From Verrucomicrobiota bacterium (GTDB lineage: Bacteria > Verrucomicrobiota > Verrucomicrobiia > Chthoniobacterales > UBA10450): a stretch of DNA of 33,031 bases. Location of the stretch: contig QHNV01000079.1 in NCBI GenBank assembly GCA_003218535.1, forward strand, positions 1 through 33,031. Direction: 5' to 3'. The translations under genes and the position numbers were made by a program. The notes below the pieces were generated by a model, which worked only from the letters and a program-made list of their open reading frames with translations, did not search any database and had not been told where the DNA came from. Below, piece after piece: positions 9,208 to 29,636 of the stretch; positions within the stretch are counted from its first letter, which is position 1, and each line of letters opens with the position of its first letter.

Positions 9208-11193
9208 GTGGACTCGATAAGCATACGTGTCCCGCTTGAGCTGGAGCGGAAAATGGATGAAGCCATTCGGCGATATCCGCAGGACCACCGAAGGAGCGCG
9301 GCCATGCCGCTGTTGCATCTCTGGCAGGAACACTTCGGGTTCATCAGCGACGAGGCCGTGCTTTCGATCGCGGAAAAGCTTGGCTTGCAACCGATCAACA
9401 TCCTCGAGCTGGTCACGTTTTACCCAATGTTTCGCCAGAAGTCGCCGGGCAAAACGCATATTCGCATCTGTCGGACACTCAGTTGCGCAATGGCTGGCAG
9501 TTTCGAGCTGATGAAAAATTTATGCGCGACCCTTGGGATTCAACGTCCACCTGATGGTGAGGGAACTCATAATCCCATTTCGGTCAGCTCCGACGGAAAT
9601 TGCAGCGTCGAGTTCGTGGAATGCCTGGCCAGCTGCCATACCGCGCCAGTGTGCATGGTGGGCGAACAGTTGTACGAAAACGTGGATGTAAATTCGGTTG
9701 CCAATCTACTGCGAAATCAAACATCAAACATCAAACATCAAACATCTCCGCACCCTCTCGAACACCGCTTAATTTACAAAAACTTCGGGCGCTCAGATTG
9801 GACGACTGATATCGATTGTTACCTGCGCGATGGCGGTTACGAACAATTGAAGCAAGCGCTGAGGATATCGCGCAGCGAAATTGTCGATAAGGTCAAAAAC
9901 TCGGGCCTGCGCGGCCGCGGTGGAGCCGGATTTTCCTGCGGCTTGAAATGGAGCTTCATCAAGCCGGACGAAAAGCGGCCGGTCTATCTGATCTGCAACG
10001 CTGATGAATCTGAGCCAGGTACATTTAAGGATCGCTACATCATCCATGAGGACCCACACCAACTGCTCGAAGGAATTTTGATCTCGTGTTACGCGCTCAA
10101 TGCGCGCACCGCGTATATTTATGTCCGCGGCGAATTCCCGGAAGGCGCGAAGATTCTCGAGCGCGCTATCGAAGAAGCACGTGCGCACAATTTTCTTGGG
10201 AAAAATATTCTCGGCTCCGGATTTGATGTCGAGGTTTACATTCATCGCGGTGCGGGCGCCTACATTTGCGGCGAAGAAACGGGCTTGATTGAATCGCTGG
10301 AGGGCAAGCGCGGCTACCCGCGGATCAAACCGCCTTACTTCCCGGCGGTGCTCGGTCTCTACATGTGCCCGACCATCGTCAACAACGTCGAGACACTCTG
10401 CCACATCAAACACATTATCGCCATGGGCGGTGCGGAGTATGCTCGTCTCGGCCGGCCTAACAACACCGGGACGCGCATCGTCTGTGTAAGCGGTGACGTC
10501 CAGCGACCGGGCTATTTCGAAATTGAAGTCGGCGCAGTGACGATGGGCCAGTTGATTTACGAAATGGCTGGCGGACTGCGAGCGGGCCGAAAATTAAAAG
10601 CAGTCATTCCGGGCGGGAGTTCTGCCAAGGTTTTGCGTGCAGATGACCGATTCAAGCTTAAGCAGAGACAGCCCAATGGATCGACCATCGAACGAGAAAT
10701 ATCGATTGACGAGATCCCGATGGATTTCGATTCGCTGACTGCCGCAGGCTCCATGGCTGGTTCCGGCGGCGTGATCGTGCTGGACGATTCTCGCGATATG
10801 GTCTGGGTGTTGAACAACATCAACGAGTTTTATGCACACGAAAGTTGCGGCCAGTGCACACCCTGTCGGGAAGGCTCGCTCTGGATGAAGAAAATCACCG
10901 ATCGCATGTTGCGCGGCGGAGGTGTAGTGGAGGATCCGGACACACTCAAGACTATTGGCGACAATATCGCCGGGCGGACAATTTGCGCGTTTGGGGAAGC
11001 ATGCGCGTGGCCGACCCAGAGTTTTATCCAGAAATTTCCTGAAGAATTCGCGTCGCGTGCGCAGAAGCCCGTTCCCCCGCCGCTTCCACCTGAATATACG
11101 CCAGAGGAATTAGTCGAGGAAGAATCGATTCCCACTCTTCCCATGGCACACGACCCCGGCTGGGAAAAAGCCGGCGCCAAAGGAACGATCTGA
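9208..11193 (+). CDS. nuoEF: Fused NADH-quinone oxidoreductase subunits E and F
   Basis: This single 661-residue frame contains complete NuoE and NuoF, which oxidise NADH and pass electrons through FMN and iron-sulfur clusters. NuoE (residues 1 to about 168) has the 2Fe-2S ligands C88, C93, C139 and C143. NuoF (about 183-661) has GLRGRGGAGF near 234-242 for NADH/FMN binding, ADESEPGTFKDR near 265-276, and 4Fe-4S ligands C547, C550, C553 and C593. The linker (residues 171-180, QTSNIKHQTS) is encoded by four AAACATC heptamers. No ATG, GTG or TTG lies in frame between the repeat and the conserved start of NuoF, so NuoF seems to have no start of its own. The start is GTG 9208, 13 bases after the lipoprotein stop. 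Confidence 0.92.
   Translation: MDSISIRVPLELERKMDEAIRRYPQDHRRSAAMPLLHLWQEHFGFISDEAVLSIAEKLGLQPINILELVTFYPMFRQKSPGKTHIRICRTLSCAMAGSFELMKNLCATLGIQRPPDGEGTHNPISVSSDGNCSVEFVECLASCHTAPVCMVGEQLYENVDVNSVANLLRNQTSNIKHQTSPHPLEHRLIYKNFGRSDWTTDIDCYLRDGGYEQLKQALRISRSEIVDKVKNSGLRGRGGAGFSCGLKWSFIKPDEKRPVYLICNADESEPGTFKDRYIIHEDPHQLLEGILISCYALNARTAYIYVRGEFPEGAKILERAIEEARAHNFLGKNILGSGFDVEVYIHRGAGAYICGEETGLIESLEGKRGYPRIKPPYFPAVLGLYMCPTIVNNVETLCHIKHIIAMGGAEYARLGRPNNTGTRIVCVSGDVQRPGYFEIEVGAVTMGQLIYEMAGGLRAGRKLKAVIPGGSSAKVLRADDRFKLKQRQPNGSTIEREISIDEIPMDFDSLTAAGSMAGSGGVIVLDDSRDMVWVLNNINEFYAHESCGQCTPCREGSLWMKKITDRMLRGGGVVEDPDTLKTIGDNIAGRTICAFGEACAWPTQSFIQKFPEEFASRAQKPVPPPLPPEYTPEELVEEESIPTLPMAHDPGWEKAGAKGTI
9719..9746. 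repeat. (AAACATC)x4 heptamer repeat at the NuoE/NuoF junction
   Basis: Four perfect tandem copies of AAACATC run from 9719 to 9746, preceded by a degenerate GAAATC. The array is read as codons in the linker of the NuoE-NuoF fusion. Seven is not a multiple of three, so gain or loss of one or two units would break the fusion frame. Confidence 0.92.
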
Positions 11194-11195
11194 CT

Positions 11196-11651
11196 ATGTC
11201 TGAGGAAAGCAGGAATGCAGGAAAAGAGTTGAGGGATTCAGAAATTACAGACGCGATTATTTCCGCGGCGTTTGCAGTGCATCGCGAACGCGGTCCGGGT
11301 TTTTTAGAATCGATCTACGAGCAGGCTTTGGCGGTCGAGTTCGCTCTCCGTGGAATTGCGTTTGTTCGACAGAAACTGATACCGCTTTTTTATCGCGATC
11401 ATCAGATTGGCGAACATCGGCTGGATTTCCTTGTAGACGAGAAGATCGTGGTCGAGCTCAAGGCGATTGACGCGTTCGAAAATGTCCATTTTGCAATTGT
11501 TCGCAGCTATCTGAAGGCTAGTGGGCTGGCGGACGCGCTTATTCTGAATTTCTCGAGCATGCCATTGACAATTAAGCGAGGTCCCTCGAGAACGCGGATT
11601 TCAACCACCCGATTTGCACCTCTAAAATTCCTGGGTTCCTGCTTTCCTTAG
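11196..11651 (+). CDS. GxxExxY family protein (PD-(D/E)XK nuclease-like)
   Basis: A 151-residue protein with the family signature G35-x-x-E38-x-x-Y41 in GPGFLESIYEQAL. The PD-(D/E)XK-like core has D77 in RLDFLVDEKIVVELK, with E87 and K89. GxxExxY proteins are widespread in environmental bacteria and have no established function; the nuclease-like fold is the usual prediction. The gene sits between nuoF (gap 2 bases) and nuoG (gap 2 bases), so it is co-transcribed with complex I although no link to respiration is known. The C-terminal 20 residues (after about 130) look unlike the rest and may be poorly conserved. The start is ATG 11196. Confidence 0.85.
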   Translation: MSEESRNAGKELRDSEITDAIISAAFAVHRERGPGFLESIYEQALAVEFALRGIAFVRQKLIPLFYRDHQIGEHRLDFLVDEKIVVELKAIDAFENVHFAIVRSYLKASGLADALILNFSSMPLTIKRGPSRTRISTTRFAPLKFLGSCFP

Positions 11652-28465: not shown

Positions 28466-28545
28466 AAGCCGATCCCAACTGGGATGCCGTTCGCTCGCAG
28501 CCTCGCTTCATTTTAGTGTTGAAGAGGGTCGGTTTGGAGAAATGA
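28466..28545 (+). pseudogene. Out-of-frame remnant of the cyclase C-terminus
   Basis: Read in the frame that ends at TGA 28543-28545, these bases (with 28453-28465) encode the terminal TPR-protein tail LPELKADPNWDAVRSQPRF and LVLKRVGLEK. Restoring one T after 28450 would give WLPELK and extend the cyclase protein by about 31 residues after DERTP. The restored stop would overlap the start of the downstream GST gene as ATGA, supporting an original two-gene operon. Confidence 0.75.
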
Positions 28546-29636
28546 AACCACAGTTTCCCATCGAGCAAACTGAGTCCGGCGAATTCCAACGTCAGGAAGA
28601 CACGTTCCGCGAATGGATATCCAATGATGGATCGACACCGTATCCAGCCGTCGTTGGCCGCTATCATCTTTACGTTTCGCTCGCGTGCCCTTGGGCAAGT
28701 CGCACCATCATTTTCCGAAAGTTAAAGGGACTCGAAGAAGCGATCGGCATGACAATTGTCGATCCCATTAGGGATGAGAAAGGTTGGGCGTTTCGCGATC
28801 CATCCGGGGAAATACTGCCTGGCGCGCCGTTTGAGTCCACGGATCCAGTCAACCGCTTTCACTTTCTCAGGGAAGCTTACAAAGCAACGGATCCAAGTTT
28901 CGACCAGCGCGTTACAGTGCCGGTGCTTTGGGACACGGAGACGAAGAGGATCGTGAATAATTGCGAGGACGACATCTGTCGCATGTTCAACGACGTGTTT
29001 AATGAGTTCGCCAAAAATAAAGACGTCGCCGGACCCGGCAAAGCCGGGCAGCCCCTTCAATCGGAGCGGGGCGATGCAAGCAATCAGACCGAGCGAAGGG
29101 GCTGGGCGATCCAGCCAGTTGATGCAACTGGCTGCCCTCAGGGTGCAGAGCGGATCGATTTTTTCCCGAAAGAGATCGAAGCCGAGCACGCGAAGCTCGC
29201 CAATTTTCTGCACGACAACGTAAACAATGGCGTTTACAGAGCCGGTTTCGCTACGCGTCAGCGGCCATACGAGATTGCCTGCCGCAGACTTTTTGAAGCG
29301 CTCGATGAACTGGAAGAGCGTTTATCGAAAAGCCGTTACTTGTTTGGTAATCGAATCGTCGAAGCTGACTGGCGATTTTTCTGCACGCTCGTCCGGTTCG
29401 ACGTGGTCTATCACGGCCATTTCAAATGCAATCTGCGTCGCATTATCGATTACCCGAATCTGCAAGAGTATTTAATGGATTTGTATCAGGAGCCAGGGAT
29501 CGCTGATACCGTGAACTTCGATCACATCAAACGCCATTATTACATGACGCACACCGAAATTAATCCGACACGCATCGTCCCTATCGGCCCCGCAATCGAT
29601 CTTACGAAACTACACGGACGCGAGAAATATTCATAG
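28542..29636 (+). CDS. Glutathionyl-hydroquinone reductase-like GST (ECM4/YqjG family) with in-frame insertion
   Basis: A 364-residue Xi-class glutathione transferase-like protein. Family enzymes reduce glutathionyl-hydroquinones with glutathione in the cytoplasm. The catalytic cysteine is C49 in LACPWASR. Other family blocks are VDPIRDEKGWAF, VPVLWDTETKRIVNN, VNNGVYRAGFA, SRYLFGNRIVEADWRFFCTLVRFD and YPNLQEYLMDLYQ. The start is ATG 28542, overlapping the ancestral stop of the cyclase gene; an upstream extension of the frame to 28383 is only cyclase sequence in another phase. Between FNEFAKNKD and IDFFPKEIE there are about 43 extra codons encoded by hairpin-forming DNA (29025-29153). Without them the length would be about 321, the family norm. 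The insertion falls before the C-terminal helical domain, so function may be retained. Confidence 0.88.
   Translation: MKPQFPIEQTESGEFQRQEDTFREWISNDGSTPYPAVVGRYHLYVSLACPWASRTIIFRKLKGLEEAIGMTIVDPIRDEKGWAFRDPSGEILPGAPFESTDPVNRFHFLREAYKATDPSFDQRVTVPVLWDTETKRIVNNCEDDICRMFNDVFNEFAKNKDVAGPGKAGQPLQSERGDASNQTERRGWAIQPVDATGCPQGAERIDFFPKEIEAEHAKLANFLHDNVNNGVYRAGFATRQRPYEIACRRLFEALDELEERLSKSRYLFGNRIVEADWRFFCTLVRFDVVYHGHFKCNLRRIIDYPNLQEYLMDLYQEPGIADTVNFDHIKRHYYMTHTEINPTRIVPIGPAIDLTKLHGREKYS
29025..29153 (+). repeat. Hairpin-rich palindromic element inserted in frame in the GST gene
   Basis: Within about 129 bases lie three perfect inverted repeats: CCCGGC/GCCGGG (29034-29039 and 29043-29048, AAA loop); CAGCCCCTTC/GAAGGGGCTG (29049-29058 and 29095-29104, 36-base loop); and CAGCCAGTTG/CAACTGGCTG (29112-29121 and 29125-29134, ATG loop). 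A further imperfect CTGC-CC/GG-GCAG structure follows at 29132-29148. The encoded residues (from VAGPGKAGQPLQSERG to CPQGAER) match nothing in the GST family that I know. The length keeps the frame open, which resembles the behaviour of Rickettsia palindromic elements. Exact ends are estimated. Confidence 0.8.

Follow-up and report, generated by a model that had tools for sequence, protein, structure and literature searches.

A dispersed palindromic element, very probably mobile, lies in frame within protein-coding genes of Udaeobacter-like Verrucomicrobiota

The analyzed window, a 33,031-nt stretch of DNA, is contig C5 of a 2.69-Mb genome consisting of 269 contigs. An intact gene of 364 codons at 28542–29636 encodes a glutathionyl-hydroquinone reductase (GHR; Xi-class GST) with the Pfam domains GST_N_2 and GST_C_2; this gene and all features described within it are on the forward strand. 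Elsewhere in the window, a single ORF of 661 codons at 9208–11193 looks by eye like a NuoE-NuoF fusion, and a small ORF at 11196–11651, by eye GxxExxY-family-like, separates the NuoF-like from the NuoG-like gene in the NADH dehydrogenase cluster.

The original prediction described an in-frame insert of 129 bp (43 codons) at 29025–29153 of the GHR gene, composed of three consecutive inverted repeats. The repeats were found exactly as described, and the reading frame is kept across them without a stop codon. As had also been stated, removal of the insert leaves a protein of 321 aa, which matches the family length. A matching GHR was identified in 57 other genomes of the family and the 43 residues were missing in all of them, the alignments breaking off near residue 162 and restarting near residue 204. 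They were likewise missing from the GHRs of relatives in public genomes and from solved homologues such as Escherichia coli YqjG; PDB relatives (e.g., YqjG, 3r3e) align on either side of the insert. The empty sites in relatives read GACGTCGATTTT or GATGTCGATCTT, and the empty-site stretch of the public Candidatus Udaeobacter sequence L043 was identical to that of L214 from genus member G034. In the predicted GHR structure, residues 163–203 are the sole segment with pLDDT below 50 and sit in the linker that joins the N-terminal thioredoxin-like part to the helical domain, while the remainder is predicted confidently and agrees with the solved GHRs.

A nucleotide search, which the original prediction had proposed, revealed diverged copies of the insert in the same genome and in 11 further genomes from the genus, both in coding and in intergenic positions. 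A covariance model built from 23 extracted and aligned copies had matches in 31 of 83 genomes of the family, representing 5 of 14 genera; part of the weak matches were copies of a sister family described below. In a phylum-wide sample of 388 genomes the model matched the genome of origin only (0 of 387 others). Within the sampled genomes the repeat is thus confined to one family of Verrucomicrobiota, the relatives of Candidatus Udaeobacter, a name that rests on the labels of public relatives. No Rfam matches at the gathering score were found within the window, and DNA resembling the element was not found in phages and plasmids.

In total, 71 distinct full copies were catalogued, including about a dozen each in genomes G080 and G017. 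About half of them are located between genes and about half are inserted in frame in some 25 unrelated genes. The genic copies occupy several reading frames and both orientations, and their hosts include Rho, Mfd, RNase D, NuoN, Fmt, and PxpC. Pfam domains span the copy in RNase D, Mfd, RmlD, methionyl-tRNA formyltransferase, the agmatine-deiminase-like PAD_porph, and the PxpC-like CT_A_B, as well as in a haem-oxygenase-like enzyme, laccase, VanZ, an acyltransferase, a metallo-beta-lactamase fold protein, and the Rho ATPase. Further copies, among them those in NuoN, rhomboid, and HisC, adjoin a domain but remain within the ORF. In Rho the copy is in the opposite orientation, at ATCGAT, and the insert was absent from the matching Rho of all 70 other genomes, as far as the matches extend. 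The exact absence of 43 residues was found in orthologues of GHR, a glycosyltransferase, and Rho, and exact empty sites are known for these three genes and for a glycogen debranching enzyme.

Two rival explanations can be dismissed. A native, lineage-specific loop of GHR, present without any insertion, would be compatible with the intact gene and its preserved frame, but it is refuted by the absence of the segment in the 57 other family genomes, by the copies in unrelated genes, and by the duplicated target, leaving this reading practically no weight. The conservation of these residues in distant homologues without other genomic copies, which would have overturned the original prediction, failed on both counts. 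An artefact of metagenome assembly might be suspected in a genome of 269 contigs; for the element family it is refuted by orthologous copies that recur at equal positions in independent genomes (Mfd, n = 3; RNase D, PxpC, and NuoN, n = 2 each), and its probability is negligible. The best explanation (probability about 0.93) is that Udaeobacter-like Verrucomicrobiota carry a palindromic mobile element that is non-autonomous and protein-coding, and that the insert is one of its copies; its dispersal and precise insertion are shown by the sequence comparisons. A comparable coding palindromic element in another phylum, as originally inferred, is supported by the coding and intergenic copies and the in-frame interruption of unrelated genes; the lineage restriction, the defined target, the 3-bp duplication, and a longer sister family had not been foreseen.

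Empty sites enabled the borders of the element to be defined. The insertion is best read as an element proper of 126 bp (CCGGACCC...GAGCGGA, 29029–29154) together with 3 bp of duplicated target, as inferred from the triplets repeated at empty sites. The left copy of the duplication, TCG at 29026–29028, was identified by comparison with the empty site of relatives, and the right copy, TCG at 29155–29157 followed by the AT of the TCGAT target, is supported by empty sites, target consensus, and duplication statistics. Of the border clue noted originally, the TCGAT at the right border stood, being the target, while the resemblance of GAGCGG-GGCGAT at 29064–29075 to that border (GAGCGGGGCGAT / GAGCGGATCGAT) proved incidental and falls in a variable loop. 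The triplet duplicated at empty sites is TCG, with GCG and CCG at variant sites: the glycosyltransferase empty site AGCGAG corresponds to GCG at both ends of the insert, and the glycogen debranching enzyme site GCCGAA to CCG at both ends. Identical non-TCG triplets at both ends were found in 4 independent copies versus 0.69 expected (p = 0.0015). A 4-bp duplication was rejected, since the base before TCG does not follow the left flank; the glycogen debranching enzyme alone would permit four. The flank consensus is AAGATG-TCG-ATCTT, a dyad-like sequence of the form AAGAT(4)ATCTT. The left-flank and right-flank positions vary independently of each other, which indicates that the target is recognized as a sequence and not as a hairpin; pairing between the flanks, considered as a possible hairpin target, was only as frequent as expected.

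A 3-bp duplication and a dyad-like target AAGAT(4)ATCTT would also be left by a miniature inverted-repeat transposable element (MITE) of a DDE insertion sequence, with a DDE transposase acting in trans through a 3-bp staggered cut. However, the element termini share merely a 3–4 bp inverted repeat, with no terminal inverted repeat (TIR) of at least 7 bp, conservation lies instead in an internal multi-hairpin fold, and no longer insertion sequence sharing the 3' end was found in the 83 genomes. This origin is possible but rather unlikely.

The fold itself exceeds what chance would give. RNA folding of a 141-nt stretch gave −68.2 kcal/mol (z = −3.58), and none of 200 shuffled sequences was equally stable. 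The consensus fold of the 71 copies comprises seven short helices. Hairpin 1 (CCCGGC-AAA-GCCGGG, 29034–29048; 6 bp, AAA loop) corresponds to consensus helix 2 and shows covariation in 5 of 6 pairs. Hairpin 2 (CAGCCCCTTC / GAAGGGGCTG, 29049–29104) has 10 bp and a variable 36-nt loop and represents helix 3, while hairpin 3 (CAGCCAGTTG-ATG-CAACTGGCTG, 29112–29134, ATG loop) is helix 5, with covariation in 6 of 9 pairs, and the short hairpin 4 (GCCC/GGGT, 29134–29144) is helix 6. The element is more than a series of three independent hairpins: the central segment GGCGATCC (29105–29112) pairs with both the 5' TCGCC (29026–29030) and the 3' GGATC (29152–29156), forming helices 1 and 4, or, in the consensus, 5' (T)CGCC with central GGCGA and 3' GGRTC with central GAYCC. 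Since both ends pair with the central segment, they meet at one junction. Double changes were observed in 22 of 38 pairs; double-changed cells numbered 143 versus 41 in shuffles across the 71 copies, and the signal collapsed when the partner was slid.

In a strand test for selection as RNA, G.U and A.C cells were equally common, with no G.U excess. This is the expectation for copies decaying after insertion, with no sign of ongoing selection as RNA, and the fold therefore matters before or during movement and not as a present-day RNA. Whether the recognized form is DNA or RNA remains undecided by the fold data. The covarying cloverleaf-like fold, together with a 3-bp duplication and no terminal repeats, could suggest a bacterial SINE-like retroelement, in which a structured transcript is copied by a reverse transcriptase supplied in trans and integrated at a staggered nick. 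This is improbable, given the absence of G.U excess over A.C, no reverse transcriptase having been linked to the element, and the fact that neither poly-A nor a 5' truncation pattern was seen.

The central segment, which joins both element ends, also has a guide-like match to the target. Folded ends and a guide-like center complementary to the target are features on which an IS200/IS605-derived element of the PATE or REP type can be proposed, whose single-stranded DNA is moved by a Y1 tyrosine transposase and whose central segment serves as a target-pairing guide. Y1 transposases are indeed abundant in the genus, being present in 32 of 35 genomes; in genomes G001–G034, those of the IS200/RAYT type reach up to about 10 per genome. 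On the other hand, the four best Y1 genes have no copy of the element nearby, and the duplicated triplet tracks the host site (GCG, CCG). The standard IS200/IS605 mechanism leaves no target duplication, and the duplication therefore argues against this route, which we regard as doubtful.

For the non-autonomous palindromic element favored here, the intermediate and the mobilizing enzyme are inferred. The conserved fold, with both ends paired to one central segment, would be the form recognized during movement; copying may proceed via a folded single strand of the element, which an enzyme acting in trans would insert following a 3-nt staggered cut. Selection would then remove copies at intolerant protein sites or with a stop codon in the host frame, and the proposed consequence of losing harmful copies is that intergenic and surface-loop copies remain. 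Neither an autonomous partner nor a mobilizing enzyme was found. In a search of the 83 genomes for a longer version with a model of the 3' half, all strong matches were known full copies, with only a weak unexplained rest. No transposition was observed, and since even the closest copies at sites that are clearly unrelated share only about 80–87% identity, recent activity is not demonstrated.

An insertion of this kind adds 129 bp and does not shift the reading frame. All 34 genic copies have lengths divisible by three, and 31 of the 34 add exactly 129 bp, versus 17 of 37 non-genic copies with lengths divisible by three; the non-genic copies are open in a given frame in only 27%–38% of cases. 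Genic copies were partly defined by their open frame, so the frame statistic is fair only in the empty-site test. In this test, the element was removed computationally at the duplication; 40 of the 71 resulting empty sites fell well within ORFs of 150 codons or more, and 35 of these 40 ORFs stay open through the filled site. The frames mainly used are +0 (14 genes), −1 (5), and +2 (5), so the element does not encode one conserved peptide. Conservation of frame and absence of stops in genes argue against removal by splicing or ribosome bypass, which would tolerate stops and frameshifts.

In orthologous inserts dN/dS was 0.85 versus 0.19 in the flanks, and by this sequence measure the inserted peptide appears to drift almost neutrally. 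The sample is small, three of the pairs being Mfd, and the pair L195/L165 may represent two independent insertions. The dS of the inserts, about 0.25, was below the 0.71 of the flanking genes despite the nearly unconstrained peptide, an unexplained observation made in Mfd, RNase D, and phosphodiesterase genes (L128, L132, L134, L192, L024, L129, and L159). In GHR the 43 residues very probably constitute a nearly neutral linker in a tolerant loop, and the enzyme is very probably made with the insert; its cellular translation is inferred from frame and stop conservation, with no peptides available.

The weak model matches revealed a second structured repeat family, 205–213 bp long, with an equal plan of end-center-end pairing (5' TTAGCCC, central GGGCTAACCC, 3' GGGTTAG), with the addition of a terminal hairpin and with a longer loop. 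Its copies include L292:2064–2272, L293:2049–2257, L298:2029–2234 (minus), and L304:2054–2266 (minus). The covariance models of both families match each other's copies. The sister family duplicates TAG, with coordinated variants CAG/CAG, TGG/TGG, and TAA/TAA, and its copies are mostly intergenic, some being located at a stop codon. In both families the central segment is complementary to the target triplet, which suggests the idea of a guide to the target, although covariation within the families is only partial. More speculatively, the TCG- and TAG-target families could form a new superfamily in which the center pairs with both ends and, as an internal guide, with the target triplet, so that swapping the center triplet swaps the target; the TCG branch would thereby have become able to colonize coding genes, while the TAG branch, bringing stops, stayed at gene ends. 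We offer this scheme as a tentative hypothesis that may well be wrong. Weak sister-model matches in another family of the same order, L313:1488–1654 (minus) and L314:1486–1601 (minus), contain a similar 3' terminal hairpin (GATTTCTCAC..GTGAGAAATC) and possibly represent a third family.

Palindromic elements that insert in frame into coding sequence are commonly treated as peculiar to Rickettsia and Wolbachia, and neither a rule for their targets nor a mechanism is known. Their occurrence in a second lineage, this time in soil bacteria, where dozens of copies, precise empty sites, a defined target, a measurable duplication, and a sister family are available, opens the question of how they move to testing. 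Natural insertions in essential proteins (Rho, NuoN, RNase D) are a further benefit, and annotation calls for caution, since 43 extra residues in one enzyme can reflect selfish DNA rather than function. Nothing comparable was found in the literature on Udaeobacter and Verrucomicrobia; subscription papers were outside the scope, so this absence is not proof.

Among known systems, the REP sequences of the GTAG/CGTC families associated with RAYT transposases are 20–40 bp long with a GTAG/CGTC tag at the stem, and the verrucomicrobial Opitutus terrae is rich in GTAG repeats (PMC3733652). The element resembles them as a hairpin repeat found partly inside genes of a genus with Y1 transposases, but differs in its 126-bp length, target duplication, the lack of a conserved GTAG/CGTC tag in the alignment, and the four best Y1 genes without a nearby copy. 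The enterobacterial RU/ERIC and Neisseria Correia repeats are MITE-like, and the reviewed ones have terminal inverted repeats or a TA-type terminus (PMC2229807, PMC2759123). They are similarly small, structured, and non-autonomous, some with open frames fused to genes, whereas the Verrucomicrobiota element lacks such repeats or a TA-type terminus; of the MITE criteria, it meets the target-site duplication (3 bp) but not TIRs in common with an autonomous insertion sequence. Descriptions of the in-frame way of life concern Rickettsia and Wolbachia and, to a lesser extent, the enterobacterial and Neisseria repeats.

By analogy, the protein-coding palindromic elements of Rickettsia (RPE) and Wolbachia (WPE) appear to be the nearest known kind. 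WPE (Ogata 2005) occur in frame in addA, addB, and priA (PMC4224334); they too are palindromic, free of stop codons, and inserted into conserved genes, but their hosts are alphaproteobacterial endosymbionts. RPE (Ogata 2000, 2002) are strongly base-paired sequences of 105–146 bp located in frame in many unrelated conserved genes and between genes (PMC2229807, PMC10969869); their target duplication is unknown, and they have 12-bp terminal inverted repeats (PMC2229807), a criterion not met by the 3–4 bp ends found here. The shared features are a short, strongly paired insert in both in-frame and intergenic positions and its tolerance by the protein. Unlike RPE, the Verrucomicrobiota element belongs to another phylum, to free-living soil bacteria, and has a defined 3-bp duplication, a dyad-like target, and a multi-hairpin fold with ends paired to the center. 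As a way of life, the criteria of a protein-coding palindromic element are met (126 bp plus 3, stable folding, in-frame location in about 25 genes and also between genes). Although no sequence comparison with RPE or WPE underlies this statement, the Verrucomicrobiota family is separate from both, with its own fold, target, and duplication.
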